Shown: in pieces, positions 3,332 through 32,598 of the stretch
Position numbering within the stretch: position 1 is the first letter of the stretch
How the letters are laid out: each line of letters opens with the position of its first letter
Source: Isosphaera sp.
GTDB taxonomy: Bacteria > Planctomycetota > Planctomycetia > Gemmatales > Gemmataceae
Assembly (NCBI GenBank): GCA_013822345.1
Contig: PNKH01000055.1
Location: 1 to 50,368 of the forward strand
Direction: 5' to 3'
Length of the DNA: 50,368 nt
Notes under the pieces: generated by a model
The model's database searches: none
Seen by the model: the letters and a program-made list of their open reading frames with translations, nothing else
What the model was told of the DNA's origin: nothing
Program-made: the position numbers and the translations under genes

Positions 3332-4945
3332 TCACCGGCCGGGCGCACGCGGGTCTCGGTTGTTGCGGAGGTCCTTCCAGTCGACCTTCGCCTTCGGGTC
3401 GAGGCCGTTGAGGTACTTCTCGACGTTCGTGTACCCGTCGCCGTTGCAGTCCTTTGCCGCGTCGGCCGAGTCGTTCGGGTCGAAGCCGTACGTCCGCTCC
3501 CAGTCGTCCGGCATCCCGTCGCGGTCGGCGTCCTTCACCGGCTCGCCCGTGTACTCCGGGTAGCCGCCGACCTGCTTCACGTCGGTGATGATCCCCTGCT
3601 TGGTGTCCGCGCCGGCGGTCCCCTTCCGGACCGCCTCGACGACGCGGCGGTCGACCGCGTCGCGCCGCGGGAGCGTCGCCCCGGCCTGGTCGAGTACCGC
3701 GGCGAACGCCTCGGCGGCGGGCTGGACCGGCACCTCGGCCGTCGGGAACGGCTTGTCCTGCCGCACCCGCGGCAGGATCACCTTCGGGTCGTCGTCCCCG
3801 TCGATCTGCACCCCGCCGGCCCAGTTGTCCTTGGTCACCGCGTCGTTCCCCTCGACCACGTTCCCGGCGACGTGCGCCTTCCCCCACTCCCGGGCGAGGG
3901 TCTTGTCCGGCCCGGGCCGCCGGCCGTCGGGCCGGAGGACGCGGTGGGCGACCGGGCCGTCCGGGGTGGCCGGGCCGGGCTTGTAGTAGTTGTTGACGAT
4001 GTTGTACCGGCTCTTCTGGTCGCCGCCGTCGACGGTGCGGTGCCGCCAGTTGTAGACGACGTTGTTGAGAAAGTTGAAGTCGCCGTCCATGCCGATGCTC
4101 GGGTTGCGGCCGGCGTTGTTCGCCCACAAGTTGTGGTGGAACGTGCTGTTGTGCCCGCCGATGGTGCTCCCGAGCGAGTGGTTGTAGGTGTCGAGGGCCT
4201 CGCTGGAGATGCACCACTGGATCGTGATGTTCACCGTCGGCAGCTTCAGCTCCGTGCCGCCGTCCTTGGGCTTATACATGTGGCGGTACATGGAGAGGTT
4301 CTCGTCGAGCCCCCAGCTCGCCGAGACGTGGTCGAGGATGACGTTGCCGACCGGGTTGCCGCCGAGGGAGTCGTCGCGGTTCGCCACGTCCGTCTCGCCG
4401 CGGCGGAACCGCAGATGTCGGATGACGACATCATGGGTATCAATACAGACGGTGGCGCCGCGGATGCAGACGCCGTCGCCGGGGGCGGTCTGGCCGGCGA
4501 CGGTGATGTACGGCGAGCGGATGCGGACGCGGTTCTTCAGCCGGATCGTGCCGGCGACGGTGAACACGACGACGCGCGGGCCGACGGCGTTGCACGCCTC
4601 GCGGAACGTGCCCGGCCCGGCGTCCTCCAGACTGGTGACCGCGTACACCTTGCCGCCGCGGCCACCGAAGCTGTACATCCCGCCGCCCCACGCCCCAGGG
4701 AACGCCGGGATCGCCGCCTGCGGCAAGTCGGTCGGCTTCGCCGCCCCGGGCAGGTACGGCTTCCCCTTCTTGGCCCACCCGGCGAGCTCCGGCTGGGCCC
4801 TCGCCCACGCCTCGTCCTCGGGCTTCTCGTACCTCGCCCGCCGCTCGTCCTCGGCGCGCTGCACCTCCGGCGGCACCTTCGGGTACTGCCCGGCCGCCAC
4901 CCCGACGAGCAGGGCGAGGCCCGACACGCATAACGGAGTTCTCAC
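3332..4945 (-). CDS. Secreted polysaccharide lyase family 1-type (pectate lyase-like) protein
   Basis: 537 residues from the GTG at 4945, chosen because it opens with a signal peptide (RTPLCVSGLALLVGVAAGQ) and follows the upstream gene's stop by 14 bases; a longer frame to 5008 would overlap that gene. The lyase domain starts near residue 81 (AFPGAWGGG, GGRGGKVYAVTSLEDAGPGTFREA), the form seen in Bacteroidetes and planctomycete PL1 proteins, and continues through parallel beta-helix rungs such as HDVVIRHLRFRRG and NNVVYNWRHRT. Two EF-hand-like DxDxDG sites (DADRDG from 472, DCNGDG from 499) end the protein and suggest calcium binding. Expected role: eliminative cleavage of polygalacturonate. 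Last gene of the operon. Confidence 0.85.
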   Translation of the reverse strand: MRTPLCVSGLALLVGVAAGQYPKVPPEVQRAEDERRARYEKPEDEAWARAQPELAGWAKKGKPYLPGAAKPTDLPQAAIPAFPGAWGGGMYSFGGRGGKVYAVTSLEDAGPGTFREACNAVGPRVVVFTVAGTIRLKNRVRIRSPYITVAGQTAPGDGVCIRGATVCIDTHDVVIRHLRFRRGETDVANRDDSLGGNPVGNVILDHVSASWGLDENLSMYRHMYKPKDGGTELKLPTVNITIQWCISSEALDTYNHSLGSTIGGHNSTFHHNLWANNAGRNPSIGMDGDFNFLNNVVYNWRHRTVDGGDQKSRYNIVNNYYKPGPATPDGPVAHRVLRPDGRRPGPDKTLAREWGKAHVAGNVVEGNDAVTKDNWAGGVQIDGDDDPKVILPRVRQDKPFPTAEVPVQPAAEAFAAVLDQAGATLPRRDAVDRRVVEAVRKGTAGADTKQGIITDVKQVGGYPEYTGEPVKDADRDGMPDDWERTYGFDPNDSADAAKDCNGDGYTNVEKYLNGLDPKAKVDWKDLRNNRDPRAPGR

Positions 4946-4959
4946 GGTGCGCCTCGCGG

Positions 4960-7668
4960 TCACGGGTTCGGCTTCTTGGGGGCGTCCTTCTTCTGTTTCG
5001 CCGCCCACTCCTCGGCCGCCTTCTTCAGGTCGTAGCCTTCGGCACTCAGGTAGTTCGTGATCCGCCCCTTCGCCTGGCGGAACTTCTCGTGCTTCTCGTC
5101 GGCGCCGCCGGCGACGAGCGCGTCCTCGCGGCCGGCGAGGAGGAGTTCGCGAATCTTGCTCTTCTGGGCGTCGGTGAGGTCGGGCAACATCTCACAGTAC
5201 ACCTTGTACGTGTTCACCCGCACCCCGTACCTCATTGCGTCCTTCACGGCGTCGCACTGCTCGGACATCAGCGCCACCGCCAGGTCCTGCGTGAACCGCT
5301 TGTGTACGACCGCGACCTCGGCCGCCGCCTTATCACGAGCCTTCGCGACGGCATCCGTATCCGCGCCGGCGGCCTTCACCGCGGCGTCGCGGTCGAAGTG
5401 GATGTCGTTGATGCCGACGTAGTGGGCCGCCACGGCCCGGACCGCGGCCGCCTTCTTCGCCTCGTCCGCGACGCTCGCAGAGGCCACCGCCGCGGCCGCC
5501 CGCTTGTCGATCGTCTCCCGGTACTTCGGGTCGGCCGACGGTCGCGGCGGGTTCGCGAGCACGTTCAGGTAGTGCTCCAGGTTCGTGTACCCGTCGGGGC
5601 GGTAGGCCGCGCCGTCGGCGGGGTTCTTCGGGTCGAGGCCGGCGGCCGTCTCCCAGGCGTCGGGGATGCCGTCGCGGTCGGCGTCCGGCGGGGCGTCGCC
5701 GGACTTGTATTCCGGCAGCCCGCCGGCGTCCTTCGGCGTGTCGATGATGCCGGGCAGCTTGCCGCGGCTGCCGGTGAAGGTGTGCGTCCGCTTCCGCACG
5801 TCGGCGATCACCCGGCGGTCAACCGCGTCCTGCTTCGGCCTGGTCGCCCCGACGTCCGCCAGCACGCTGTCGAACGCCTCCTTCGCCGTGTGCGTGGCGA
5901 CGAACGGCTCGAACAGCGGCTTCTCCTGCCGCACCTTCGCCAGCCCGTCGGCCGGGCCGACGTACGCCTTCCAGTTGTCGGCGTCGAACTCCGGCTTGCC
6001 GTCGATGACGTTACCGGTCATGTGCGCCCGCATCCCGCGGTCCGGGTCGCCGGGGTCGGGCTTCAGCAGCGTGAACACCGTGGTCGCCGGGCCGGGGAGG
6101 TAGAAGTTGTTGACGAAGTTCAGCTCCCGGACCCCGCCGTCGGTGGTCCGGTCGCGCCAGTTGTAGACGACGTTGTTGCGGAGGTCGAGCCGGCCGGCGA
6201 GCCGCTGCCCGGTGCGGTCGAGGCCGCCGGCCAGGCTCCAGTTCCGGCCGGTGCAGTGGGCGAGCAGGTTGTGGTGGAAGCTGCCGACGCCGCCGGAGAT
6301 GCTGGCGGCGAACGAGTGCCCCTTGCCGGGCTGGTACTTCTTGTGGTTCGCGACGTTGAGCGCCTCGGCGATGAGGCACCGCTGCACGGTGATGTTCTTC
6401 GCCTCGCGCGAGCTGAACCCCTCGTCGATGCTCCAGCTGATCGAGCAGTGGTCGAAGACGCAGTGGTCGGACCCGCGCGCCCCGCACCCGTCCTGCGTCT
6501 CGCCGGACTCGTCGCCGACGCGGATGCGGACGTGGCGGATCACCACGTCGTGCGTGTCGGAGCAGCCGAAGGTGTAGTTCGTGACGCAGACGCCGTCGCC
6601 GGGGGCGGTCTGCCCGGCGACCGTCAGGTACGGATTCCGCACGACCAGCTTCGACTTCAGCGGGATCACCCCGCCGACGCGGAACACGGCCGTCCGCGGG
6701 CCGCTCGCCTCGACCGCCGCGCGGAGCGACCCCGGCCCGGCGTCGTTCAGGTTCGTCACCTCGTACACCGCGCCGCCGCGACCGCCGATCGCGAACCGGC
6801 CGTACCCCTCCGCCTCCGGGAACGCCAGGTGCCGGACGCGGAACCGCCACACCTCGCCGGACACCACGCGGTCGCCGTGCACGGTGTCGACGCGCCAGAA
6901 GTACGACTGCCGGTGGTTCAGCTTCAGGGCGGCGGTCGGGAACGTCGCGCCCTTCGTCTCGCCGCGCAACTCCAGCGCGTTCGGGTCGGTGCCGAGGTGG
7001 ACGCGGTGGGTAGTCGCCCCCGGCGCGGCCCGCCACGCCAGCACCGGGTCGGTGGGGGCGTGCTCGTCGGCGTCGGCCGGCTCCGGCTTCGCCGCCCGCC
7101 TGGCCGGGTCGGAGCGGTCGATCTCGAACCCGTTCAGGACCACGCCGCCGGCCCCCTCGCCGGTGAAGGTGACGACCACGTCCTTGCCGGCGACGGCGTC
7201 GAACTCGACGTAGGCGGACGCGGCGTCGGCGTCGTGCGCGACCCGGTGGGACGGCGTGACGACCGCCTTCGCCCCGCCGGCGGTCACCGTGACGCGGCCC
7301 GGCTTCCCGTCGGCGAGGGCGTTGTGCCAGGTGCCGAGCGAGTGCTTCCCGGGGGCGAGGCCGGAGAGCGTCAGTTGCAGTTCGCCGGCGACCACCCCGT
7401 CCGACGCCATCCGGGCTGGGTGGTCGAACCCCGGCTTCCACCACGCGGTGCCGAGCTTCGCCCCCTTCCCGGCGCGGAGTGTCACCGTGATGTCGCCGAA
7501 CTTCGCGGTGGCCGATTCCGCCTCCGGCACCCGCCAGTGATCCCACCCCGGCGCGAGCACGTCGGCCCGGCCGTTGTCCTGGTTCAGGTCGACGCGCGGC
7601 CCGGCCGCCGCGGCGTGAGGGAGCAGGATCAGGGCGGCGACGGTGAGGGTGGTGCGCATAGGGTTCAC
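4960..7668 (-). CDS. Multidomain polysaccharide lyase 1-type protein with C-terminal DUF3826
   Basis: 902 residues. Order: signal peptide (1-23), beta-sandwich region (about 25-185, ending VVLNGFEIDRSD, like galactose-binding folds), fibronectin-type region (about 195-280, QSYFWRVDTVHGDRVVSGEVW), PL1-type beta-helix domain (from 281, GGRGGAVYEVTNLNDAGPGS), a DADRDG calcium-like site, and a C-terminal all-helical block (715-902) whose YVGINDIHFDRD, KDAMRYGVRVNTYKVY, GREDALVAGGADEKHEKF and GRITNYLSAEGYD runs match my memory of DUF3826. DUF3826 is usually separate and linked to pectin loci; its role is unknown. The GTG at 7668 overlaps the upstream stop as GTGA; an ATG at 7659 is an equal alternative. 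Confidence 0.82.
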   Translation of the reverse strand: MNPMRTTLTVAALILLPHAAAAGPRVDLNQDNGRADVLAPGWDHWRVPEAESATAKFGDITVTLRAGKGAKLGTAWWKPGFDHPARMASDGVVAGELQLTLSGLAPGKHSLGTWHNALADGKPGRVTVTAGGAKAVVTPSHRVAHDADAASAYVEFDAVAGKDVVVTFTGEGAGGVVLNGFEIDRSDPARRAAKPEPADADEHAPTDPVLAWRAAPGATTHRVHLGTDPNALELRGETKGATFPTAALKLNHRQSYFWRVDTVHGDRVVSGEVWRFRVRHLAFPEAEGYGRFAIGGRGGAVYEVTNLNDAGPGSLRAAVEASGPRTAVFRVGGVIPLKSKLVVRNPYLTVAGQTAPGDGVCVTNYTFGCSDTHDVVIRHVRIRVGDESGETQDGCGARGSDHCVFDHCSISWSIDEGFSSREAKNITVQRCLIAEALNVANHKKYQPGKGHSFAASISGGVGSFHHNLLAHCTGRNWSLAGGLDRTGQRLAGRLDLRNNVVYNWRDRTTDGGVRELNFVNNFYLPGPATTVFTLLKPDPGDPDRGMRAHMTGNVIDGKPEFDADNWKAYVGPADGLAKVRQEKPLFEPFVATHTAKEAFDSVLADVGATRPKQDAVDRRVIADVRKRTHTFTGSRGKLPGIIDTPKDAGGLPEYKSGDAPPDADRDGIPDAWETAAGLDPKNPADGAAYRPDGYTNLEHYLNVLANPPRPSADPKYRETIDKRAAAAVASASVADEAKKAAAVRAVAAHYVGINDIHFDRDAAVKAAGADTDAVAKARDKAAAEVAVVHKRFTQDLAVALMSEQCDAVKDAMRYGVRVNTYKVYCEMLPDLTDAQKSKIRELLLAGREDALVAGGADEKHEKFRQAKGRITNYLSAEGYDLKKAAEEWAAKQKKDAPKKPNP

Positions 7669-9245
7669 TTCTTGGGGGCCTCGGCCCGGAGCCGGATCGC
7701 CATGTAGGGGTTGCCCGGCAGCGGGATCGTCGCCGGCGGGTCGGCGACCAGCCGGTAGCCGCCCTTCTGCTTCAGCGTGAACGACCCGGGCACCGGCTTC
7801 ACCGTCATGTTCCAGGTGTCCAGCACCTCGGCCTTCAGTGTCAGCGGCTTGTCACTCTTTCCCGGCAGGTCGACCGCCCATTCGGTCGGCTTGTCCTTCC
7901 CGAGGTACACCAGGTAGAACTCGCCGCGCTTCCCGGCGGTCCGCTCGTCCTGCCACTTGTCGATCGGCTCCAGCCCGTCCGCCGGGCCGGCCTCCAGCAC
8001 CTTCCGCAGGAACGCCAGCCGGTCCGGGCTCTTGCCGCGCAGCACCCCGCCCCGCGACCACCACACCAGGTCGTCCTTGTGCTTGTAGGTCTCGCCGTGG
8101 CCGACGTAGGTGCCGGCGATCGCCCCCTGCCAGAACCGGTGCACCATCTCCTCCGCCGACAGGTTCCCCCACCGCTGCTCGAAGTCGCCCTCGTACTTCA
8201 CCTCGTCGAAGACGATGGGCTTGCGGTACACGTCCCGGTACAGCACCGCCCGGCCGAAGTCGGCGACGGCCGACCCGTTCTGGACGCTGGCGTGCGTCAG
8301 CCGCGGGTCGGTCTGGTTGTACAGCCGGGTGCCGTTGTGGATGGAGAGCAGGTGCTTGTGCGGGTCGGCCTCGTGGACGATCTTCAGGAACCGCCCCCAG
8401 TCGGCGTCCGTCTTCTCCATGAAGTCGAACTCGTTCGCCAGCGACCACCACACGTTCCGGTACGCCGCCAGGCGGGCGACCACGTACCGCAGGTACCGGT
8501 CGTCGGCCGCGGGCGGCATCCGGTCGAACCCCCAGTGGCCGTCGTCGTAGGGGTGGAAGAGGATCACGTCGGCCTCGATCCCGAGGTCGCGGAGCTGCCC
8601 GACTCGCTTTTCCAGGTGGCGGAAGAAGTCGGGGTTGAAGCGCTCGAGGTCCCACTTGTTCGGCGGGGTGCCGGCGAACGGGTAGCGCGGCGGTTCGGTC
8701 CGGTTGAACGCGTACCACTTCGGGAAGACGCACATCCGCAGCTTGTTGAACGGCGCCGCCTTCAGGGTGGCGAGCGTCTGCTCCTCGAGCGCGTCACCCT
8801 GGTGCGTCCAGGCGTAGCACGTCGTGCCGACGGAGACGTGCGGGGTGCCGTCGGCGTAGGCGAAGTGGTAGGTGTTCCGCACCCGCACCGGCCCGCGGTT
8901 GCCCGGCCCCGGCTTCCCGACCGTGAACGTGCCGCTCTTGCCGTTCAGCTCGGCCCGGTTGCTCGCCGTCGTGTACGCCCACTCGCCCTGCGCCTCCGGC
9001 ATGAACCGGACGCGGTAGGTCCCGTCGCCGTCGTAGAAGCCGGCGGCGCGGACCTGTGTCTTGCCCTGCGTGAAGGTCGCGGACAGTTCCACGTCGACGA
9101 ACGGGTTGCCGTCCGCCGGCCCCTTCAGGGTGACCTCGAAGATGCCCCACTGCTCGACCTCCGCGGCCTGCAAGCGGCCAGACAAGAATGTCTGGCCCAC
9201 CAGCAGTGACAGAACGGCGGTGAGGAGGCGGCGGACGGTGTGCAT
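7665..9245 (-). CDS. Secreted DUF5060/DUF4038 glycoside hydrolase (GH140-like) with C-terminal DUF5605-like domain
   Basis: 526 residues. After the signal peptide comes an Ig-like DUF5060 domain (about 29-110, VEQWGIFEVTLKGP, GFYDGDGTYRVRF), then a TIM barrel of the DUF4038 type (about 120-430, VSVGTTCYAWTHQGD, ILFHPYDDGHWGFDRM). Likely catalytic acids are E272 in WWSLANEFDF and E348 in IVFDEVKYEGD, the usual clan-A strand ends. The C-terminus (about 440-526) resembles the DUF5605 beta domain. GH140 members cut apiose from rhamnogalacturonan II; this is a broad family, so substrate is open. The signal peptide contains VGQTFLS, encoded by a copy of a dispersed palindrome. Three bases separate it from the GH127-type gene. 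Confidence 0.82.
   Translation of the reverse strand: MHTVRRLLTAVLSLLVGQTFLSGRLQAAEVEQWGIFEVTLKGPADGNPFVDVELSATFTQGKTQVRAAGFYDGDGTYRVRFMPEAQGEWAYTTASNRAELNGKSGTFTVGKPGPGNRGPVRVRNTYHFAYADGTPHVSVGTTCYAWTHQGDALEEQTLATLKAAPFNKLRMCVFPKWYAFNRTEPPRYPFAGTPPNKWDLERFNPDFFRHLEKRVGQLRDLGIEADVILFHPYDDGHWGFDRMPPAADDRYLRYVVARLAAYRNVWWSLANEFDFMEKTDADWGRFLKIVHEADPHKHLLSIHNGTRLYNQTDPRLTHASVQNGSAVADFGRAVLYRDVYRKPIVFDEVKYEGDFEQRWGNLSAEEMVHRFWQGAIAGTYVGHGETYKHKDDLVWWSRGGVLRGKSPDRLAFLRKVLEAGPADGLEPIDKWQDERTAGKRGEFYLVYLGKDKPTEWAVDLPGKSDKPLTLKAEVLDTWNMTVKPVPGSFTLKQKGGYRLVADPPATIPLPGNPYMAIRLRAEAPKK
9176..9201. repeat. Copy of dispersed palindrome (family D) inside a signal-peptide coding region
   Basis: GACAAGAATGTCTG flanked by GGCCA and GCCCACC forms a small palindrome (arms GGCCAGAC / GTCTGGCC). 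The same GACAAGAATGTCTGnCCCACC run is one arm of the intergenic inverted repeat at 26090-26140. Here it encodes residues 16-22 (VGQTFLS) of the glycoside hydrolase leader. Confidence 0.65.
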
Positions 9246-11686: not shown

Positions 11687-12229
11687 TTACTTCGGGGGGT
11701 CCGGCTTCGGCTTCGGCGGCGGGGCCACCTCGGGCTTCGCCTTCGGGTCCGGGTCCTTCTTGTCGTCGGGGTCCTTCTTGTCGTCGGGGCCCGGGTCCGG
11801 CTTCGGGGCCGGCCGGGCGACCGTGATCTTCAACTCGTTCCTCCCGCCGGTCACCTCGAACTCGATCCCGGACGTCTCCGGGCGGGTGAACTTCTCGTCC
11901 ACCGCCGGCGCCTTCCCCTGGTCCAGCTCGGCGTTGGACAGGGCCCGGGGGACGACGATCACCCGGTACTTCCCGGCCCGGGCGCCGTCCCCGGCCTTGG
12001 CCGTCCCCCAGGCGAAGGTGCCGTCCGGCCCGACCGCCCCCCGGGCCATCACCTTCGTCCCGTCGATCGTCGTCTCGCCCACCACGGTCCCCTCGGTCAG
12101 GGGGCTGCCGTCCTCGTACGCCACCCGGCCGGCGACCGGGTACTGGGCCGGCCCGCACCCGGCGGCCAGGGCCGCCAGGGCCAGGGCCGGGGCGAGCCGG
12201 CGGGTCACACGCCTCGTCGCGGTCGTCAC
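11687..12229 (-). CDS. Small lipoprotein with repetitive Asp/Lys/Pro tail
   Basis: 180 residues from the GTG at 12229, preceded by GGAGG at eight bases. The lipobox-like LAAGC is at about residues 26-30. The core domain (YPVAGRVAYEDGSPLTEG, MARGAVGPDGTFAWGT, GKYRVIVVPR, ISFEV-like end GIEFEVTGGRNELKI) aligns along its length with the downstream lipoprotein. It differs by about 40 extra C-terminal residues made of DDKKDP and KPDP units with no fold expected. A charged tail of this sort could contact cell wall, polymer or another protein. It is 37 bases from the DUF1559 gene upstream, and the two are probably co-translated parts of one unit. Confidence 0.72.
   Translation of the reverse strand: MTTATRRVTRRLAPALALAALAAGCGPAQYPVAGRVAYEDGSPLTEGTVVGETTIDGTKVMARGAVGPDGTFAWGTAKAGDGARAGKYRVIVVPRALSNAELDQGKAPAVDEKFTRPETSGIEFEVTGGRNELKITVARPAPKPDPGPDDKKDPDDKKDPDPKAKPEVAPPPKPKPDPPK
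11751..11786. repeat. Two 18-bp tandem repeats in the lipoprotein tail
   Basis: GGGTCCTTCTTGTCGTCG occurs twice head to tail (11751-11768 and 11769-11786). On the coding strand it gives the repeated DDKKDP unit. This is in-frame length variation of the kind made by replication slippage. Confidence 0.8.
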
Positions 12230-12266: not shown

Positions 12267-13178
12267 TCAGTCGAGGCTCGGGACCACCAGGCCGTCGTCG
12301 CGGTTGGCGAGCAGGGCCAGGGTGCTGCCCGGGACCGAGGTCCGGAGCCCGCGGACGCTCCCGTCCCCGAACACGAACTGGACCACCCCGGTGTGCCAGC
12401 TGCCGAACTGGGTGAGCGGGGTGTCGGTGTTGGTCAGGGCCAGCTCCCGGCCCGGCCCGGCCGCCCGGACGTACGTCATGGTCTCGCTCCCGCTGAAGAT
12501 CATCCCGTCCTGGGCGTAGTGGTTCAGGCTGTTCAGCTGGATGTGCTTCTCCCCGACCAGGATGGTGTTCGTCGTCCCGTCCTTGATGTCCTTGATCTGG
12601 ACCGACACCCGGGTGTGGTTCGAGTTGACCAGCTGGAACACCCCGTTCGTCCCGGCCCCCGTGACGGCGGTGGTTTCCCCGGCGCAGGCGGCGTAGTCGG
12701 ACGGGGTGCCGGTCACGCCGGCCGTGTTCGGGTCGGTGATCGGGCTGAGCGCCGTCCCCCCGCCGCGCCGGCTCGGGCAGCTGTACACCTTCACCTGCGC
12801 CCCCCGGGCGGTCACGACCTGCGGGTCGGTCGAGGTGTGGTTGTTCACCCCGTCCGTCTGGTTCACCCCGGCGATCGGCTCCTTGTAGATGTTGAACACG
12901 TTCTCCTGCTCCAGGTTCGGCAGGATGAGCAGCGCCCAGGTGTGGCGGTTCTGCCCGCCGCCGGACCGGGCGTACGGGAACTTGCCGTAGGTGTCGTGGT
13001 ACTGCTGCAGGGCGATCCCGATCTGCTTCAGGTTGTTCTGGCAGCTCGACCGGGCGGCGCTCTCCCGCACCTTCTGGACCGCCGGGAGGAGCAGCCCGAC
13101 GAGGACCGCGATGATGGCGATGACGACCAGCAGCTCGATCAGCGTGAACGCCGACCGGCGGGACGGGAGGCGGGTCAT
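12267..13178 (-). CDS. DUF1559 prepilin-type (PulG-like) secreted protein
   Basis: 303 residues. The N-terminus [17 protein letters not shown] is a type IV prepilin / type II pseudopilin leader, with cleavage expected before Phe; the residue before the cut is Ala rather than the usual Gly. The hydrophobic helix runs into [28 protein letters not shown], the DUF1559 signature, and the C-terminus has [13 protein letters not shown], the family's conserved end. DUF1559 proteins are strongly expanded in planctomycetes and are thought to form surface fibres or pseudopili; a precise role is not known. Here it lies between a beta-helix polysaccharide protein (42 bases upstream) and two lipoproteins, so a role in holding or moving pectin-active proteins is a reasonable guess. 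Confidence 0.9.
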
Positions 13179-13220: not shown

Positions 13221-16184
13221 TCACTTCGGCTCGCGGCGGACCCACAGCACCGCCGGCCCGGCCCCGGCCGGCCGGACGGTCGCCGCCGCGCCGCCCGGCG
13301 GCGGGTCCGTCAGCGGGGCGAGCGCCCCGGTCTTCGGGTCGACCCACGCGGCGGCGAACGGCCCCCGCGCCGCGGCCAGGTCGAGCCGGACCGGGCCGCC
13401 GGCCGAGTACACGAGATACCGCTCGCCCGGCTCGGCCAAGGCGTACTGGCCCTTCGCGAACAGCTTCGACTCGAACGGCTTGAGCCCGGCGGCCAGGAGG
13501 TCCGGGGCGGTCGTCTTCGGCAGGTCCGGGAGCGACGCGCCGGCGGCCAGCGCCGCCCAGCCGTGCCCGCCGTCGTGGGACACGGTCACCGCCTTGCCCG
13601 GGAACTTCGACCGGTACTCCCGGACGGCCCGGGCGACCGACTCGGCCGACCGCGCCTTGTCCCCGGCCCACTCCCGCAGCTGCTGCCGCGGGGCCAGGTC
13701 CTCGCCGCCTGTCGGGTCGTACACCCCGCCGCGCGCCGTGTACCACCAGTACTTCAGGTCGATCACCGACACCAGGGCCGAGCGGAGGGGGTCGGCCAGG
13801 ATCGCGTCCTGCACGTCCTTGGTGCAGCTCAGCCCGACCAGCACCGTCTTCCCCGACTCCTTCTGCCACTCGGCGACCGTGTCGAGCCAGAACTCGACGA
13901 AGTGCCGCGGGCCGGTGAACTCCTCCCCGGTCTGGAAGACCACGTTCGGGCACCCGCCGAGCACGTCCAGGCAGTGGCGGATGTACCGCCGGTGGAGGTC
14001 GCGGCGGACCGGGTGGGTCACGTCGTAGAACGCCGCCGCCATGAACACCCGCTTCCCGCCGGCGTACTCCGGCGGCTCCGGGAACCCGGTCTCCTGGAGG
14101 CAGTTCGCCGGCCGCCACGGGAAGTCCGCCCAGTGCGCCCCGGCCTCCAGCACGTTGTGCTGGAAGTACATCTGCTGGACGAGAACCAGGCCCTTCCGCC
14201 CGCAGTGGTCGGCGAACTCCTTGAGCCGGGCGAAGTACCACGGGTTGAACCGGGTCAGGTCGTACCTGCTCAACCCGTCCCACGCCCGGCCCTTCCCCGA
14301 CCGCGCCCACGGCAGCTCGTAGAACGGCGCCCACACCCCGCCGTCGATCCGGCGAATCATCTGGTGGTCGTCGCGGCGGCGGTCGTACCACAGCCCCCAA
14401 TGGTGGTCGAGGGCCGCGACCCCGTCCGCCCGCATCTGGTCGGTCAGCTCGTCGAGGTCGTCGGTGAACCCCGGCCCGACCCGGCCCGGGACGAACCGCG
14501 TCACCCCGATGCCGCGCTCGGTCGCCCGGCTCGGGAGCGTGTGCCCCTGCCACCAGGCGGTGCCGACGCGGTCGCCGGCGACCAACTTGCCGTCGACCGT
14601 CAGCCGGCCGTCGGTCAGCGCGAGCGGCTTCGCCGCGGGCGGCGCCGGGGCCGGCGCCGGGTTGCCGATTCGCTTCGCGTCGCCCGGGTCGGTGGTGACC
14701 GGCCCGGCCTTCAGGACCGCCGCGGCCTTCGCCCCGAGGCGGTCGGCCAGCTGCGCCTCGTACAGGCTGTCCGGCTTCACGAACTCGTTGAACTGCCGCC
14801 AGTGCCCGTCGCCGACGAGCTGGCCCCAGACCCCGACCGCCCAGTTCTGCGCCGTCGGCGGCGTCCGGCAGGTGACGACCGGGGCGGAGCACTGCCACAG
14901 GACCGAGTTCGCCGCCGCCCACCCGACGCCGTGGTCGTCCGTCTCGCGGTTGGTCAGCGCAAGCCCGCCGCCGTCGACGTGGACGTTGTCGTACAGCACG
15001 CCGGACGCCCAGCTCCCGACCGGCCCGCTGAACCCGTGGGCGTCGGTCGCCTTGCACCGGACGAAGGCGGTCGGCCCGGGGGCGAGGTGCCCGACCGCGA
15101 AGTCGTGCCGGCCGCCGGTCGCCGTGCAACGGAGGAACAGCGTCTGCCCGCCGGCGGTGAGGAACGTGTGCCGCCGCTGCCCGCCGACCTCGGACACCGG
15201 GTCGGCCGAGTCGCAGTCCTCGACGGTGACCCGCCGGGCCGTCTCCCACACCGCCACCGCCGACCCCGCCAGGTGTCGGAACGACACCCGCCGGACCCAC
15301 ACGTCTTCGGCGTTCTCGACCGTCACCCCGGTCCAGGCGTGGTCCTCGTCGTGCGGGTTCTTCGGGTCGAACGCCGACTCCAGCCGGAGGTTCTCGACCC
15401 CGACGTTCCGCACCCGCCCCGGCCACGCGTACCGCCGCACCGTGGCCGTGCCGTGCGCCGCGTCGAGGGCGGTGGTGAGCGGGGCGTCGAGCGTGACCCG
15501 GTCGCCGTCGACCTTGGTGACCACCCGGTCCCAGCGGATGTCCAGCGTGCCCGGCTTCCAGTCGAGGTACGACCCCTTGTCCCGCGACGGGAACCGGTCC
15601 ATCCCGATGGCGGCGATCCACTTCTCCGTCGACGGGTGCTCGACCACGACCGCGTCGCCGGCCTTCAGCCCGTCGGCCGACCCGAGGCGGAGCGTGTCAA
15701 CGCCGACCGGAACGTAGGCGTCGGCGACCGGCCGCGGCTTCTCCTCGGTGCGGTCGGCCCGGCCGCGGACCCGGACCACCGCCCGCCGGTCGGTGCCGGT
15801 CGCGACGAGGACGGTCTCCTTCCCCTGCCCGCGGAGCACAACGCCGCTGGTTCCGATGCGGAGGTGCCCGGCGACCTCGTGCCGGCCGGTAAGGAGCAGG
15901 ACCGCCCCGCGGAACCCGTCCGCGCCCGGGGCCAAACCCGCGACGTGGTCGATCGCGGCCTGGATGCGCGGCCCGGCGTCGCCCTTCCCCGGCGCGACGA
16001 CGGCGCGGACCGGCACGTCCGGGATCGCCGCCCCGCCGCCGTACCCGGCGTGGGAGAAGTCCGGGACGCGGTTCCCGCGGGCGTCGGCGGGGTACGCCAG
16101 CCGCCCGTCCGGCCCCGGGTGGACGTACCGCCGCTCGGGGTCGGCCCCCGCGACGGCCACCAGGATCAGGGCGACACTCCGCAT
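13221..16184 (-). CDS. Secreted beta-helix protein fused to a glycoside hydrolase-like domain (DUF6298-like)
   Basis: 987 residues, first gene of the operon. A short signal peptide leads into YVHPGPDGRLAYPADARGNR, then a right-handed beta-helix (about 45-480) with rungs such as VWVRRVSFRHL and TVEDCDSADPVSEVGGQRRH. A Pro/Ala linker (PAPAPAPPAAKP) leads to a second half that looks like a TIM barrel: DHHWGLWYDRRRDDHQ, LVLVQQMYFQHNVLEAG, and NVVFQTGEEFTGPRHF with a probable catalytic Glu. I associate this half with DUF6298 but am not certain. The N-terminal half is paralogous to the protein at 35751-38189, which lacks the barrel. Expected role: action on a pectic or other uronate polymer. Confidence 0.75.
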   Translation of the reverse strand: MRSVALILVAVAGADPERRYVHPGPDGRLAYPADARGNRVPDFSHAGYGGGAAIPDVPVRAVVAPGKGDAGPRIQAAIDHVAGLAPGADGFRGAVLLLTGRHEVAGHLRIGTSGVVLRGQGKETVLVATGTDRRAVVRVRGRADRTEEKPRPVADAYVPVGVDTLRLGSADGLKAGDAVVVEHPSTEKWIAAIGMDRFPSRDKGSYLDWKPGTLDIRWDRVVTKVDGDRVTLDAPLTTALDAAHGTATVRRYAWPGRVRNVGVENLRLESAFDPKNPHDEDHAWTGVTVENAEDVWVRRVSFRHLAGSAVAVWETARRVTVEDCDSADPVSEVGGQRRHTFLTAGGQTLFLRCTATGGRHDFAVGHLAPGPTAFVRCKATDAHGFSGPVGSWASGVLYDNVHVDGGGLALTNRETDDHGVGWAAANSVLWQCSAPVVTCRTPPTAQNWAVGVWGQLVGDGHWRQFNEFVKPDSLYEAQLADRLGAKAAAVLKAGPVTTDPGDAKRIGNPAPAPAPPAAKPLALTDGRLTVDGKLVAGDRVGTAWWQGHTLPSRATERGIGVTRFVPGRVGPGFTDDLDELTDQMRADGVAALDHHWGLWYDRRRDDHQMIRRIDGGVWAPFYELPWARSGKGRAWDGLSRYDLTRFNPWYFARLKEFADHCGRKGLVLVQQMYFQHNVLEAGAHWADFPWRPANCLQETGFPEPPEYAGGKRVFMAAAFYDVTHPVRRDLHRRYIRHCLDVLGGCPNVVFQTGEEFTGPRHFVEFWLDTVAEWQKESGKTVLVGLSCTKDVQDAILADPLRSALVSVIDLKYWWYTARGGVYDPTGGEDLAPRQQLREWAGDKARSAESVARAVREYRSKFPGKAVTVSHDGGHGWAALAAGASLPDLPKTTAPDLLAAGLKPFESKLFAKGQYALAEPGERYLVYSAGGPVRLDLAAARGPFAAAWVDPKTGALAPLTDPPPGGAAATVRPAGAGPAVLWVRREPK

Positions 16185-16210
16185 CGGGCCAACTCCCGGC
16201 CGAACTCCTC

Positions 16211-16239
16211 TTGAGATCCTACTGAGATCTCAGTAGGAT
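16211..16239 (+). promoter_or_regulatory. Promoter for the GntR regulator, overlapping the palindromic operator
   Basis: TTGAGA (16211-16216) and TAGGAT (16234-16239) are separated by 17 bases, a good sigma-70 pair. The spacer and -10 box lie in a 24-bp perfect palindrome (16216-16239) centred on GAGATCTC. The regulator's ATG is at 16300, giving a leader of about 54 bases. Confidence 0.7.
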
Positions 16240-16243
16240 TCAA
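16216..16243 (-). promoter_or_regulatory. Promoter for the nine-gene pectin operon, overlapping the same palindrome
   Basis: On the minus strand TTGAAT (16243-16238) and TAGGAT (16221-16216) are separated by 16 bases. This pair mirrors the plus-strand promoter across the palindrome centre, so a dimer bound there would cover both. The operon's first ATG is at 16184, a leader of about 25 bases. Beyond the 24 perfect bases the symmetry continues for six more pairs with a single-base bulge. Confidence 0.7.
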
Positions 16244-16299
16244 GAAGACTTTCGACCCGATTCCACGTTTCTCATCGGTCCCCCATTCCGGAGCCGTCG

Positions 16300-16980
16300 A
16301 TGGCCGCCCGTCCGCCCGCCCGGTCCGAAGCGAGCGCCCCGGCCCGCGGGCTGCTCAAGGACCAGGCCTACGACCGGATCAAGCAGCGGCTCCTCAGCGA
16401 CGAGTACCCGCCGGGGACGTTCCTGTCCGAGCGGCAGCTGGCCGAGGGGCTCGGGATGAGCAAGACGCCGGTGAAGGCGGCCCTGGAGCGGCTGGAGGCG
16501 GAGGGGTTCATCGCCGTCTCGCCGCAGCAGGGGATCGTGGTCCGCGAGCTGTCCGTCCGGGAGATCGCCGACCAGTACGAGATCCGGGCCGCCCTGGAGT
16601 CGTACGCCCTGCGGACGCTCGCCGGCACCCTGACCGCCGACCAGGTGGCCCGGGTGCGCGAGAACCTCGCCGCCCAGGCCCGGCTCCGGGGGACCGGGGA
16701 CGTGGCCGCCGGGGTCGAGCTGGACGCCGCCTTCCACACCCAGTTCGTCGAGTTCCTCGGCAACCGCGAGATCTCCCGGGCGCTCGGCCGGCTGCGGGAG
16801 AAGATGCGGCAGGTGGTCACCCGGGTGTTTCGGCTGTCCCCGGCCCGGATCGACACCAGCCACGACGAGCACGTGGCGATCGCGGACGCGGTGATCGGCG
16901 GGGACGGCCCGCGGGCCGCGGACCTGGTCGTCCGGCACCTGGAGCTGGGGAAGCAGTTGATCCTGTCGCCGCGCGGCTGA
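16300..16980 (+). CDS. GntR-family (FadR/FCD) transcriptional regulator
   Basis: 226 residues. Residues 20-85 form the GntR winged helix (AYDRIKQRLLSDEYPPGTFL, RQLAEGLGMSKTPVKAALERL), and 90-220 form an all-helical FCD effector domain with the expected metal ligands D142, H146, H191 and H213 (DAAFHTQFVE, SHDEHVAI, VVRHLEL). FCD regulators of this type (ExuR, UxuR, GntR) sense sugar acids. Its position, divergent from the pectin operon with a shared palindromic promoter, points to control of that operon and of itself, with a uronate or its breakdown product as likely inducer. The ATG at 16300 is the first in frame. Confidence 0.9.
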   Translation: MAARPPARSEASAPARGLLKDQAYDRIKQRLLSDEYPPGTFLSERQLAEGLGMSKTPVKAALERLEAEGFIAVSPQQGIVVRELSVREIADQYEIRAALESYALRTLAGTLTADQVARVRENLAAQARLRGTGDVAAGVELDAAFHTQFVEFLGNREISRALGRLREKMRQVVTRVFRLSPARIDTSHDEHVAIADAVIGGDGPRAADLVVRHLELGKQLILSPRG

Positions 16981-16989
16981 CCCGCGGCC

Positions 16990-17080
16990 GGGCCGTGTCC
17001 CGGCGTGGGAGGGCGAGGCTCCCGCCGAGCCGGAGCTGGGCTCGGCGGGAGCCTCGCCCTCCCACGCCGGGGCACGGCCC
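16990..17080. repeat. Long intergenic inverted repeat (family A), 41-base arms
   Basis: Arms 16990-17030 and 17040-17080 match at 40 of 41 positions around a 9-base loop. The core GGGAGGGCGAGGCTCCCGCC is shared with copies at 18373, 23057 and 50283, while the outer part (GGGCCGTG...) is specific to this site. It fills the gap between two convergent genes, so it may act as a two-way terminator, though no T-run follows. Confidence 0.85.
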
Positions 17081-18372: not shown

Positions 18373-18442
18373 CGGTGTGGGAGGGCGAGGCTCCCGCCGA
18401 GCCTTCGCTCCGGCTCGGCGGGAGCCTCGCCCTCCCACACCG
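18373..18442. repeat. Intergenic inverted repeat (family A), 31-bp perfect arms
   Basis: Arms 18373-18403 and 18412-18442 are exact reverse complements with an 8-base loop. The core is shared with the other family A copies; the outer CGGTGT / ACACCG is local. It lies just upstream of the start of the 17090-18349 gene, so here it cannot be that gene's terminator. Confidence 0.85.
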
Positions 18443-18633: not shown

Positions 18634-20064
18634 ATGCCCGGGAACACCGTCCGCCGCTCCGCCTGCCTGGCCCTCGCGGTCTTCTGCGCACCAACGGCGG
18701 CCGCCGAGCCGCGCAAGCCGAACCTCGTCGTGATCCTGGCCGACGACCTCGGGTACGGCGACCTCGGCAGCTTCGGGCAGAAGACGGTCCCGACCCCGCG
18801 GCTCGACCGGATGGCCGCCGACGGGATGCGGCTGACGCAGTTCTACGCCGGCGGGGCGACCGGTGCCCCGTCCCGGTGCGTCCTGCTCACCGGCCGGCAC
18901 GGCGGCCGGGCCGCCGTCCGCGGCGACTCGGCCGACCCGGTCTCGATCCCGGCGGACCAGCCGACGGTGGCGTCGGTGCTGAAGAAGGCGGGGTACGCGA
19001 CCGCCTGCGTCGGCCGGTGGGGCGTCGGCACCCCGGCCCGGCTGACCGACCCGAACGACCTCGGGTTCGACCACTTCTTCGGGTGCGTCAACACCTGGCA
19101 CGCCCGCAACCCGTACCCCGAGTTCCTCGTCCGCGACGGCAAGCCGGTCCCGCTGAAGAACGAGGCCGCCGCCGAGTGGAAGAAGTGGCAGGACCCGAAG
19201 TTGTTGGACGGCGGCAAAGGGGTGGCGACGAAGGAGGTGGAGTACGCCCCGAAGTTGCTCGTCGACGACGCCCTCGGGTTCATCCGCGACCACCGGGACA
19301 AGCCGTTCTTCCTGCTGCTGTCGCTGACCACGCCGCGGGCCCACCTCGAAGCCGGCGACAAGGGGATGCGCGCCCCGGACCTGGGCGAGTTCGCGGGGAA
19401 GGACTGGCCGGCGGCCGAGAAGGCGTTCGCCGCGCTGGTCCGGGACCTCGACCGCGACGCCGGCCGGGTGCTCGACCTGCTCGCCGAGCTGAAACTCGAC
19501 CGCGACACGCTGGTGCTGTTCGCCTCCGACAACGGCCCGCACGGCGGCGGCGGGCACCGGGCCGACTTCTTCGCGTCGGCCGGCCGGCTCCGCGGCGGCA
19601 AGGGGACGGTGAACGAGGGCGGGATCCGCGTCCCGGCGGTGGCGTGGTGGCCGGGGACGGTGCCGGCCGGCGCCCGGAACGACCTGCAGTGGTATCTCGG
19701 CGACCTGGCGGCGACCGCGGCGGAGCTGGCCGGAGTCGCGGCCCCGCCGGGGCTGGACAGCGACAGCCTCGTCCCGGCCCTGAAGGGCGGCGAGGAGAAG
19801 GACCAGTGGAGGCGGAAGAGCCCGCTGTACTGGGAGACCTACGAGGGGCCGACGGCCCAGGCGGTGCGGTTCGGGAAGTGGAAGGCGATCCGGTCGCCGA
19901 TGCTCACCGGCGAGGTGGAGCTTTACGACATGTCGAACGACACCGGGGAGAAGAGCGACTACTCGAAGCGCCGCCCGGACCTGACCCGGCACGCGAAGAA
20001 CCTGCTCGACAAGCACCACCAGCCCGACCCGCGGTGGAAGGTGCCGCCCGCGCCGGAGAAGTGA
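18634..20064 (+). CDS. Sulfatase-fold protein with lost catalytic residues (probable pseudoenzyme)
   Basis: 476 residues with signal peptide and an intact S1 sulfatase fold: PNLVVILADDLGYGDLGSFG (D37, D38), TPRLDRMAADG, SDNGPH (D299, N300) and GGIRVPAVAWWPG. The active site is degraded. The formylglycine motif reads T-G-A-P-S-R (residues 76-81), with Gly77 where Cys or Ser must be. The usual GKWHLG reads GRWGVG (R128 for Lys, G130 for His), and the usual T-x-P-H reads TTPRAH (R235 for His). Four catalytic positions are therefore changed while the frame stays open and the metal Asp residues remain. Expected: no sulfate ester hydrolysis; possibly a binding or regulatory role. Confidence 0.85.
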   Translation: MPGNTVRRSACLALAVFCAPTAAAEPRKPNLVVILADDLGYGDLGSFGQKTVPTPRLDRMAADGMRLTQFYAGGATGAPSRCVLLTGRHGGRAAVRGDSADPVSIPADQPTVASVLKKAGYATACVGRWGVGTPARLTDPNDLGFDHFFGCVNTWHARNPYPEFLVRDGKPVPLKNEAAAEWKKWQDPKLLDGGKGVATKEVEYAPKLLVDDALGFIRDHRDKPFFLLLSLTTPRAHLEAGDKGMRAPDLGEFAGKDWPAAEKAFAALVRDLDRDAGRVLDLLAELKLDRDTLVLFASDNGPHGGGGHRADFFASAGRLRGGKGTVNEGGIRVPAVAWWPGTVPAGARNDLQWYLGDLAATAAELAGVAAPPGLDSDSLVPALKGGEEKDQWRRKSPLYWETYEGPTAQAVRFGKWKAIRSPMLTGEVELYDMSNDTGEKSDYSKRRPDLTRHAKNLLDKHHQPDPRWKVPPAPEK

Positions 20065-20074
20065 CCGCGCGGCG

Positions 20075-20126
20075 CCGCCGCTTGCGGCGTTGCGGGCGGT
20101 GCCGCCCGCAACGCCGCAAGCGGCGG
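20075..20126. repeat. Intergenic palindrome (family C), 25-bp perfect arms
   Basis: Arms 20075-20099 and 20102-20126 are exact reverse complements with a 2-base centre. The core CAACGCCGCAAGCGGCGG matches the element at 455-510. It lies between two convergent genes, 10 bases past the stop at 20064. Confidence 0.85.
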
Positions 20127-20174
20127 ACGACACACCGCCCCCGAAACCGCTCGGACCGGCCGACCGCCCCCGCG

Positions 20175-21590
20175 TCACGGGACGGAGTACGCGTCGGTGT
20201 ACGCCCGGTCCGGCGGCGGCAGCCGCGGCCCCTTCCGGTCCGGCAGCGGCTTCCCGGTCTCCCGGTCGAACCCGTCCGGCGTCCGCTCCTTCGGCACCCG
20301 GTCGTCCGTCTCCTTCGCCCACCCGGCGAGCGCCGCCCGCAGCCGCCCCAACTCGGCCGCGTGCCGCGGGTCGGCGGACACGTCGGCCAGCTCGTGCGGG
20401 TCCGCGTCCACGTCGTACAGCTCTTCCCTCGCCAGCGGCTTCGCGAAGCACGCCCGCAGCGGCGGGGTCAGCTTGTCCGCGTCCCGCAGCCGCACCAACT
20501 CGGCGAACGACGGGCTGCGGACGGCGTCGGCCGGCGGGGTGTTCGGCAGGTCCCGGTAGTCGTTCCGGACCAGCTTGAACCGCTCCGACCGGACCGCCCG
20601 GATCCGCGCCTCGTAGTCGTGCCAGTTCCGCTCCGCAAACACGAACTCGCGCACCGCCTTGGTCGGGTCGGCCAGCAGCGGGGCGAAGTCCTTGCCGACG
20701 AACGTCGGCCCCGGCTTCAGCCCGGCCAGCCCGAGCACCGTCGGGGCCAGGTCGACCGAGCTGACCAGCCGGCCGCACACCCCGCCCGCCTTCACCTTCG
20801 CCGGCCACCGGACCACGAACGGGGTCCGCACCCCGCTGTCGTACACCGTCGTCTTGCACCGCGGGAACGGCCGGCCGTTGTCGCTCAGGAACACCACCAC
20901 GGTGTCGTCCGCCACCTTCTGCCGGTCAAGCTCGTCGAGCACCTCGCCGAGGTGGGCGTCGAGCCGGGCGATCTCGTCGTAGTACGCGGCGAGGTCGGCC
21001 CGGACCGCCGGGGGGTCCGGCAGGTACGGCGGGACGACCGCGTCGGCCGGGGCGTGCGGCTTCGCCACCGCCCCCGGCTCGTACGGCCGGTGCGGGTCGG
21101 TCGCGGCCAGCCAGACGAAGAACGGCTTGTCCTTCGGCCGGCCGCGGAGGAGCGGCACCCACCCCTCGTTCCCGCCCTTCCCGCCGCCCTCCTCGACGAC
21201 GTCGAACTGCTTCTTCGCCGCCGCCCCGAGGTGCCACTTCCCGGCGGCGGCGGTCCAGTAGCCGGCCTTGCGGAGCGGGGTGCTCACCATCACCTGGTCG
21301 GCCGGGAGCGGCCAGTGGAGCTGCTCCGCCCCGGTCTGGTGCGGGTACCGGCCGGTCAAGATGCTGGCCCGGCTCGGGCTGCACGAACTGCACGTCAGGA
21401 ACGCCCGGTCGAACCGCACCCCGTCCCGGGCCAGCCGGTCCAGGTTCGGGGTGCGGACCTTCGGGTGGCCGTACGCCCCGCAGTCCTCGGCCGCCATGTC
21501 GTCGGCGATGACCACGACCACGTTCGGCGGGGCGGCGGCCGCCGGGGCGGCGAGGGCCAGGGCGAGGGCGGCGGGCAGCGCGCGGGTCAT
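20175..21590 (-). CDS. Secreted sulfatase (heparan N-sulfatase/SGSH-like subgroup)
   Basis: 471 residues with signal peptide. The formylglycine motif is complete (SSCSPSRASILTG, C70), as are the metal-binding DD (30-31), GKWHLG (K118, H120), DPHRPY and SDNG. The sequence around IADDMAAEDCGAYGHP and GVRFDRAFLTCSSCSPSR resembles N-sulfoglucosamine sulfohydrolase-type enzymes, so glucosamine N- or O-sulfate is a possible target. It is the last of five minus-strand sulfatase genes, 7 bases after the previous stop. It needs formylglycine formation by an enzyme not found in the window. Confidence 0.88.
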   Translation of the reverse strand: MTRALPAALALALAAPAAAAPPNVVVVIADDMAAEDCGAYGHPKVRTPNLDRLARDGVRFDRAFLTCSSCSPSRASILTGRYPHQTGAEQLHWPLPADQVMVSTPLRKAGYWTAAAGKWHLGAAAKKQFDVVEEGGGKGGNEGWVPLLRGRPKDKPFFVWLAATDPHRPYEPGAVAKPHAPADAVVPPYLPDPPAVRADLAAYYDEIARLDAHLGEVLDELDRQKVADDTVVVFLSDNGRPFPRCKTTVYDSGVRTPFVVRWPAKVKAGGVCGRLVSSVDLAPTVLGLAGLKPGPTFVGKDFAPLLADPTKAVREFVFAERNWHDYEARIRAVRSERFKLVRNDYRDLPNTPPADAVRSPSFAELVRLRDADKLTPPLRACFAKPLAREELYDVDADPHELADVSADPRHAAELGRLRAALAGWAKETDDRVPKERTPDGFDRETGKPLPDRKGPRLPPPDRAYTDAYSVP

Positions 21591-21597
21591 CGGGGCG

Positions 21598-23010: not shown

Positions 23011-23035
23011 GGGGATCACCTCGGGGTGCGGGACC

Positions 23036-23056
23036 GGGCCGCCACGGAGGGCAGCC
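23036..23056. repeat. Half copy of palindrome family E
   Basis: GGGCCGCCACGGAGGGCAGCC differs at one base from the outer part of the left arm of the 34090-34153 palindrome. Here only one arm is present, directly abutting the family A element. Confidence 0.55.
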
Positions 23057-23164
23057 GTTCCGAACGGGGTGGGGAGGGCGAGGCTCCCGCCGAGCCGGAG
23101 GTCGGCCCCCCGAAGAAGGCGGGCGGCTCGGCGGGAGCCTCGCCCTCCCCACCCCGTTCGGAAC
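23057..23164. repeat. Long intergenic inverted repeat (family A), 40-bp perfect arms
   Basis: Arms 23057-23096 and 23125-23164 are exact reverse complements; the loop is 28 bases. The core GGGAGGGCGAGGCTCCCGCC is shared with three other copies, but the outer GTTCCGAACGGGGTG occurs in mirrored form only here. It lies between two co-directional sulfatase genes and could stop or attenuate transcription inside the cluster. Confidence 0.88.
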
Positions 23165-23166
23165 CG

Positions 23167-24594: not shown

Positions 24595-24622
24595 GGGGCT
24601 TTCCTCCGGGACGGGGTCGGGG

Positions 24623-26065: not shown

Positions 26066-26089
26066 TGGGGTACCTCCAACTGTCTCATG

Positions 26090-26140
26090 GGTGGGGCAGG
26101 CATTCCTGCCTGCCGGGCAGACAAGAATGTCTGCCCCACC
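26090..26140. repeat. Intergenic inverted repeat (family D), 25-base arms
   Basis: Arms 26090-26114 and 26116-26140 pair at 22 of 25 positions with a single central base. The right arm carries GACAAGAATGTCTGCCCCACC, almost the same as the copy inside the coding sequence at 9176-9201. Confidence 0.75.
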
Positions 26141-26150
26141 GCCCCCGGGG

Positions 26151-27536: not shown

Positions 27537-27574
27537 GGGCCCCTCGGGAGCGGCGGCGACGGGCGGCGGTGGAG

Positions 27575-27603
27575 AACATACCCCGCCGCGGCCGCGGAAC
27601 CAA
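27575..27603 (-). promoter_or_regulatory. Promoter for the minus-strand sulfatase series
   Basis: On the minus strand TTGGTT (27603-27598) and TATGTT (27580-27575) are 17 bases apart, giving a predicted leader of about 32 bases before the ATG at 27536. It lies in the divergent gap with the plus-strand sulfatase operon. Confidence 0.55.
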
Positions 27604-27704
27604 ACCGACTTCCCGAATTAACCCCCCGCCCCGGCCGGCGGACCGGCGACACCGCGCCGGCCGGGCGGGGTTCATGACAGAGGGCCTCGCCGCGGGCCCG
27701 GGCG

Positions 27705-27710
27705 TAGAAT
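27705..27710 (+). promoter_or_regulatory. Likely -10 box of the plus-strand sulfatase/phosphatase operon
   Basis: TAGAAT lies 28 bases before the chosen GTG start. It overlaps the upstream in-frame ATG at 27709, which argues against using that ATG. No clear -35 box at the right distance was found. Confidence 0.4.
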
Positions 27711-27738
27711 GCCGGCCCCGTCGCCGCGAGGAACCCCC

Positions 27739-29202: not shown

Positions 29203-29204
29203 CC

Positions 29205-31154: not shown

Positions 31155-31168
31155 CACGGGGGCACCGC

Positions 31169-32488: not shown

Positions 32489-32491
32489 CAC

Positions 32492-32598
32492 CCTGGACCG
32501 CGGCCGTCCCGGCCGCTGGTATCCGGCTCGGGACGCTGCGGGAGAACTCCGAAGCCTCCCGAAATGGGTACCGGCGGCCGGGACGGCCGCGGTCCAGG
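32492..32598. repeat. Intergenic inverted repeat (family G), 30-base arms, with a third partial arm
   Basis: Arms 32492-32521 and 32569-32598 pair at 29 of 30 positions around a 47-base loop. A further imperfect hairpin of related composition (GAGCGGCC...GGCCGCGCTC) follows at 32604-32628. It fills the 162-bp gap between two co-directional sulfatase genes. Confidence 0.82.

Follow-up and report, generated by a model that had tools for sequence, protein, structure and literature searches.

A palindrome between a gntR gene and a pectin-type gene cluster is predicted to carry one operator within two overlapping divergent promoters

Genes and features of the locus

The window, by which we mean the whole stretch of DNA analyzed here, is a complete contig of 50,368 bases. 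It encodes an FCD-type GntR regulator and, diverging from it, eight minus-strand genes that run from 16184 down to 3332, with neighboring genes separated by at most 42 bp and overlapping by up to 49 bp. A palindrome is located between gntR and the first of these genes, which encodes a DUF6298 protein (Table 1). The initial annotation had counted nine genes in this cluster; we count eight, which we infer to form an operon. The GC content is 73% in the whole window, as against 56.5% in the intergenic region and 43.5% around the palindrome.

Table 1. Coordinates of the predicted regulatory elements and genes, with the basis for each assignment
Feature	Positions	Strand	Basis
24-bp perfect palindrome ATCCTACTGAGATCTCAGTAGGAT (contains the operator core and both mirrored -10 hexamers)	16216..16239		
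Operator core ACTGAGATCTCAGT, where a GntR dimer is predicted to bind	16221..16234		Comparative
-35 TTGAGA, predicted gntR promoter	16211..16216	+	Identical in 5 of 5 aligned syntenic genomes
-10 TAGGAT, predicted gntR promoter	16234..16239	+	Predicted start ~16246
-35 TTGAAT, predicted cluster promoter	16238..16243	-	TTGNAT in 5 of 5 aligned syntenic genomes
-10 TAGGAT, predicted cluster promoter	16216..16221	-	Predicted start ~16209
gntR, FCD-type GntR regulator, 226 aa	16300..16980	+	Pfam GntR 6.8e-18, FCD 1.1e-25
DUF6298 protein, first cluster gene, 987 aa	13221..16184	-	Pfam 2.4e-176
DUF1559 protein, pilin-type N-terminus	12267..13178	-	
Small lipoprotein-like gene, GTG start, similar by eye to the next gene	11687..12229	-	Translation
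Small lipoprotein-like gene, 145 aa	11225..11662	-	CarboxypepD_reg E 0.09, below cut-off
GH127, aceric acid hydrolase-like, 659 aa	9249..11228	-	Pfam 1e-113
Apiosidase-like protein with DUF5060 and DUF5605	7665..9245	-	Apiosidase Pfam 64.7 bits, cut-off 26.5
Pectate-lyase-like domain and DUF3826	4960..7668	-	PelZ match below cut-off
Pectate-lyase-like protein	3332..5008	-	NCBIfam PelZ 8.9e-43, 146.7 bits, cut-off 840; PDB 9buj 1.7e-37

The regulator combines an N-terminal winged HTH domain (PF00392, 64.5 bits against a cut-off of 27) with a C-terminal FCD domain (PF07729, 90.9 bits against 24.3), and both scores place it in the family. Residues D142, H146, H191, and H213, which we take to be the FCD metal ligands (one Asp and three His), are invariant in all 39 aligned GntR relatives, and such putative metal residues would fit an acidic ligand. 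At the subfamily level, 18 NCBIfam models matched the protein and none reached its cut-off, the best being phnR_burk at 112 of 271 bits. The protein is not a UxuR/ExuR equivalog, given scores of 23.6 of 396 bits for the ExuR model and 21.5 of 442 for the Uxu regulator model.

The enzymes encoded by the cluster point to pectin as the substrate, perhaps its RG-II part, to which we take aceric acid hydrolase and apiosidase-type enzymes accompanied by pectate lyases to be tied. The GH127 protein scored 936.5 bits against the NCBIfam AcerHdlse model, slightly short of the cut-off of 950; the longer ORF looks non-coding over its first 310 codons, and we therefore placed the start at an internal ATG. 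Both PelZ-like proteins fall far under the PelZ cut-off of 840, and searches returned no Pfam match for the one encoded at 3332..5008, no NCBIfam match for the apiosidase-like protein, and no Pfam match for the lipoprotein-like gene at 11687..12229. The other lipoprotein-like gene has a similar ORF of 145 aa at the equivalent place in a related genome (G001). Next after the cluster comes a convergent MFS gene (1831-3327), whose product is closest to a D-galactonate transporter model, at 186 of 395 bits and hence below its cut-off.

Eight sulfatase-family genes adjoin the pectin cluster (18634-34075), which suggests a sulfated polysaccharide as an adjacent substrate. The window also contains four copies of a GC-rich inverted repeat with arm GAGGGCGAGGCTCCCGCCGAGC (17009-17061, 18381-18434, 23074-23147, and 50299-50352). 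Allowing up to two mismatches, the arm occurs genome-wide 141 times in forward and 139 times in reverse orientation, compared with 0 in the control, and among the matches listed the arms often face each other about 10 bp apart; this is a REP- or MITE-like family. An 86-bp perfect palindrome made of this repeat (50283-50368) marks the exact end of the contig, where it may have caused the assembly to break or fold back.

A palindrome with mirrored promoter hexamers

The initial annotation had described a perfect 24-bp palindrome extended by six more pairs with one bulge, and the sequence bears this out: TCTTGA at 16209-16214 pairs with TCAAGA at 16240-16245, the bulge being G16215. The two opposed hexamer pairs that it had read on nearly the same bases are likewise present, TTGAGA-17-TAGGAT facing gntR on the plus strand (16211-16239) and TTGAAT-16-TAGGAT facing the cluster on the minus strand (16216-16243), with spacers of 17 and 16 bp, respectively. 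The corresponding predicted starts, 16246 on the plus strand and 16209 on the minus strand, lie about 37 bp apart.

Length by itself is weak evidence for such a palindrome and suggestive at most, because among 200 dinucleotide-shuffled versions of the window, 6 also contained a perfect palindrome of at least 24 bp, and we therefore dropped it as proof. We judge the palindrome to be real because it is conserved across related loci and syntenic genomes, as described below. A promoter scan of positions 15900-16500, whose scoring assumes a sigma-70-like preference in this phylum, reported the plus-strand promoter alone, with a score of 9 out of 12 (mean of 0.0 in 50 shuffles). The cluster-facing promoter scored a modest 8 out of 12, under the scan threshold of 9. 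Following the initial proposal to search the genome for the palindrome, we found a single copy at up to three mismatches.

The operator core follows the regulator across genomes

A scan of genome contigs for GntR relatives yielded 63 loci, of which 44 (L067-L110) were examined for the core, with L111-L129 outside this set. Eleven loci labeled as other phyla were left out (L094, L098-L101, L104, and L106-L110), while L084 (Actinobacteria) and L077/L105 (Opitutaceae) were retained despite their labels, giving 33 loci. At 29 of these 33, found by the protein scan alone, the core ACTGAGATCTCAGT was present with at least 11 of 14 positions matching within 350 bp upstream of gntR. With the window, L043, and L057 included, the last of which had been found by the motif itself, the count is 32 of 36. 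The core was absent (fewer than 11 matching positions) at L084, L088, L093, and L096, which begins near a contig end, and by the same measure it was found at none of the 11 left-out loci.

We also searched 387 genomes of the class for the exact 14-mer, which recovered 20 sites in 18 genomes, whereas the reversed-sequence controls recovered 0. Nineteen of the sites lie within 2 kb of the gene for this GntR, and at 17 of the 18 that we took as loci this gene falls inside the 1.5-kb flank; the remaining two are a copy in G277 (contig C50), which also sits beside the regulator gene, and a second copy in G144. The sole exact 14-mer away from a regulator, in G064, lies inside an ORF at a locus without one. 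Most genomes with an exact 14-mer were already known from earlier scans; among the four new loci, the regulator is present at three (G200, G144, and G277:C5) and absent from the fourth (G064).

Within the genus, relatives of GntR also carry the element upstream. The flanked motif was detected in 5 of 19 genus genomes, exactly the five with the regulator; because the pattern was derived from those five, what carries information is that the other 14 lack it and that no extra copies occur. A looser class-wide pattern matched 16 of 397 genomes, with the gene for this GntR beside the match in 11. The matches in G204, G276, G338, G345, and G149 had irregular centers and no adjoining gene for this GntR, and we treated them as chance. 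In the window's own genome, TACTGNNATNNCAGTA was found at 10 places with up to two mismatches, compared with 22 in the reversed control, counted per strand. Because the control gives more, we regard the nine further places as chance, dropped them as regulon sites, and take GntR to act as a local regulator, as judged from these searches.

These comparisons indicate that the inner 14 bp are very probably the operator of the regulator. The initial annotation had assigned the palindrome as a whole to the regulator; we narrow this to the core as the operator proper, with the outer bases predicted to form the two -10 hexamers.

Several relatives show additional copies or variants of the element. In G144 (L148), the exact operator occurs twice, at positions 3418 and 5094 (1.7 kb apart), with one copy before gntR and the other before a sulfatase-like gene adjoining it, an arrangement that would represent a small local regulon rather than a shared promoter. 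L057 carries a second operator-like copy, CCGCTGAGGTCTCAGTGG, upstream of gntR, and the genome of L091 has a perfect 14-mer beyond the 3' end of gntR (L138 1501), its own gntR operator being imperfect. In G001 (L004 = L068), a tandem repeat of the element's right half (AATCCCAGTAAGGTTCAAG) directly follows the operator and is possibly a second half-site or promoter. In other phyla, relatives show less exact versions at greater distances, namely ACTTAGATCTAAGT in L098 and ACTGAGATGCCAGT in L094. In the Firmicutes relatives (L098 4420 and L100 5238-5262), ACTTAGATCTAAGT and overlapping look-alikes are situated 2.7-3.6 kb upstream of gntR, which hints that an operator of this kind may predate the phylum.

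Syntenic genomes and natural dissections of the element

The DUF6298 gene is divergent from gntR in the window's genome, G001, G015, G249, and G200. Aligning these five revealed a single clear conserved intergenic island, extending from TTGAGA to CAAG. Full 24-bp symmetry was observed in two of them, the window and G249. In G001, G015, and G200, the two -10 hexamers are unlike each other yet both -10-like (TAAGAT and TAGAAT in G001, for example), which argues that they would be maintained as parts of promoters and not as arms of the operator. The away-facing score was just 7 in G249, G015, and G200. G200 was found solely via the 14-mer; the gntR/DUF6298/DUF1559/GH127 set recurs there, and its element reads TTGAGA-17-TAGAAT toward gntR and TTGCAT-16-TAGTAT away from it.

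Two further genomes differ on the side away from gntR. A pectate-lyase-like gene takes the place of DUF6298 as the divergent gene in G003, and the element is retained. In G016, a DDE transposase gene is found on that side and no divergent gene was called; the core and the gntR-facing TAAGAT are kept, and the away-facing -10 reads TGGGGT.

Promoter scores and the presence of a divergent gene

With the core held fixed, the highest-scoring -35/-10 pair was taken for each direction at 32 loci (the four of the 36 that lack the core were left out). Shuffling the flanks produced scores of at least 8 in 2.4% and of at least 9 in 0.4% of cases; the window scores 9 toward gntR and 8 away from it. An away-facing score of at least 8 out of 12, a cut-off picked after the scores were seen, was reached at 9 of the 17 loci with a divergent gene and at 0 of the 15 without (Fisher p=0.001). 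The away-facing means were 7.76 and 6.0, respectively (Mann-Whitney p=0.0017), and these p-values overstate independence because the loci share ancestry. Counting the window's clade as a single locus gave 7 of 12 versus 0 of 14 (Mann-Whitney p=0.012). Toward gntR, the means were alike (8.29 with and 8.33 without a divergent gene).

The grouping of loci involved several decisions. L078 was moved to the divergent-gene group after it stood out with a score of 10 (the earlier grouping gave a Mann-Whitney p of 0.009); its divergent ORF encodes a 2-hydroxyacid dehydrogenase according to Pfam, and the longest form of this ORF extends past the operator. L071 was counted as divergent based on a 536-aa ORF with a sub-threshold Pfam match. 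For L075, L079, L081, L082, and L095, "no divergent gene" means that there is no long divergent ORF nearby, and L043, also in this group, has a 181-aa ORF 355 bp off, with a DDE transposase gene beyond it.

At 8 of the 17 divergent-gene loci, the score away from gntR was under 8, and some divergent genes must use another promoter, because four loci (L072, L083, L091, and L092) reach just 5-6. Three later loci, L148 without a divergent gene and L149 and L150 with one (an ECF sigma factor gene in L149), all scored 7 and so gave no discrimination; with these added, 9 of 19 versus 0 of 16 loci score at least 8.

Across these comparisons, the 14-mer is tied to the regulator, the promoter hexamers are conserved, and a good second promoter tends to accompany a divergent gene; the flanking bases behave as promoter hexamers. 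The initial reading of the palindrome is upheld by comparison in that it contains a predicted GntR operator and that neither promoter looks spurious, with the firmer case being the one that faces gntR.

Discussion

We think it likely, on the strength of sequence comparison, that the palindrome carries an FCD GntR operator within the spacer of two fully overlapping, sigma-70-like divergent promoters, where a dimer would block both and a ligand would release it. Without ligand, one GntR dimer on 16221-16234 would span the spacer together with the innermost base of either -10 hexamer. The bound dimer would block RNA polymerase in both directions, repressing gntR and the eight-gene pectin cluster together, as autorepression and cluster repression at once. 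The ligand is probably an acidic sugar released from pectin; bound at the FCD metal site, it would free the dimer, and both promoters would open. Binding, repression rather than activation, the ligand, the transcript starts, and the extent of the operon are the predicted elements of this model.

Because one operator is common to both promoters, we would expect them to rise and fall together, with no toggling. The geometry should exclude two polymerases on both promoters at once, from which the initial annotation had derived a switch. Published work in E. coli limits polymerase competition of this type to strong promoters, the basal activity of the five bidirectional promoters tested having been too low for it, and a switch of this kind would thus likely matter solely where the derepressed promoters are strong.

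Three other explanations of the element were weighed against this model. According to one, the promoter toward gntR is the sole genuine one; the hexamers facing away would simply follow from the symmetry of the operator, and transcription of the cluster would start elsewhere or be close to absent. Symmetry does yield a -10-like hexamer for free, the away-facing promoter of the window lies under the scan threshold, and nearly half of the divergent-gene loci (8 of 17) score below 8 in this direction, as do the three later loci, at 7 with or without a divergent gene. Yet the away-facing -35 lies outside the core and still reads TTGNAT in all five syntenic genomes, no locus among the 15 without a divergent gene reaches 8, and the away-facing -10 hexamers remain TA-like where the palindrome is broken; we consider this explanation unlikely.

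That GntR instead acts as an activator at this site, or represses itself and activates the cluster, seems very improbable to us, since the operator fills the -35/-10 spacers, which are of near-optimal length (17 and 16 bp), and a bound protein should block the polymerase there. We know of no FCD protein that kinks the spacer as MerR proteins do. A precedent for activation nevertheless comes from some one-site divergent arrangements, such as that of SoxR, which works in this manner at PsoxS/soxR (PMC12825309). The palindrome could also function as an RNA hairpin in a 5' leader and not as a protein site: the strand folds to a hairpin of -33 kcal/mol (z -3.0), equaled in 2 of 200 shuffles. Any perfect palindrome would fold so, however, and given the predicted starts the hairpin would lie outside the transcripts. 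Its center is not self-complementary in G001 and G015, the core tracks the gene of a DNA-binding protein, and neither an Rfam match reaching its gathering score anywhere in the window nor a terminator-like site within 15900-16500 was found, all of which leaves very little room for an RNA function.

Returning to the shared operator between two promoters, its palindromic form suggests an evolutionary corollary, which we advance tentatively and hold to be rather doubtful: an operator placed in a spacer might be a ready-made half of a second promoter, with the mirrored promoter repeatedly gained and lost in this regulator family while the 14-bp core stays fixed. To bring a new divergent gene under the same repressor, changes in about ten flanking bases would be enough, because the operator already contributes the first base of the opposite -10 and the bulk of the spacer. 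Once the divergent gene is lost, the flanking hexamer bases would decay.

In tetR/tetA of Tn10, divergent promoters overlap and have a regulator site in common. The present locus resembles that system and the Pr/Pc promoters of pLS20, with the regulator and its targets divergent, the promoters overlapping, and the regulator site on them. The B. subtilis plasmid pLS20 uses two operators and DNA looping; here we predict a single 14-bp operator in both spacers, and no second operator was seen in the window. The regulator family also differs from those of both systems. Two opposed promoters sharing bases under one predicted operator are what sequence and conservation indicate here, and the arrangement of overlapping divergent promoters under one regulator is already known.

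Among FCD GntR regulators, UxuR, ExuR, and NanR, which control the use of sugar acids, share with our protein the wHTH and FCD domains, a gene beside the predicted operator, and the four putative ligand residues. It differs from them in that no NCBIfam model reaches its cut-off, and its operator differs from those known for them. The locus also recalls the bidirectional promoters of Warman and colleagues in its symmetric promoter DNA and two overlapping, opposed polymerase positions. The starts of those promoters flank a shared -10 or fall inside it and are mostly 18, but also 10 or 23, bp apart (PMC12825309). Here the -10 hexamers are separate, and because the predicted starts lie about 37 bp apart, we do not assign the locus to the shared -10 class.

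Within the open-licence literature, the operator sequence and its tie to GntR look new to print. Searching there for the string CTGAGATCTCAG returned matches only under unrelated titles (pyrogen detection; OPA1 Alu insertion), and no paper was found there on GntR regulons in planctomycetes or on promoters and transcription start sites in Gemmata.

The analysis provides a precise candidate operator, ACTGAGATCTCAGT, for an uncharacterized clade of FCD GntR regulators found mostly in Planctomycetota. The loci constitute a natural series for how a one-way promoter turns two-way. Through predicted shared control, DUF6298, DUF3826, and the small lipoproteins would be linked to the use of pectin.
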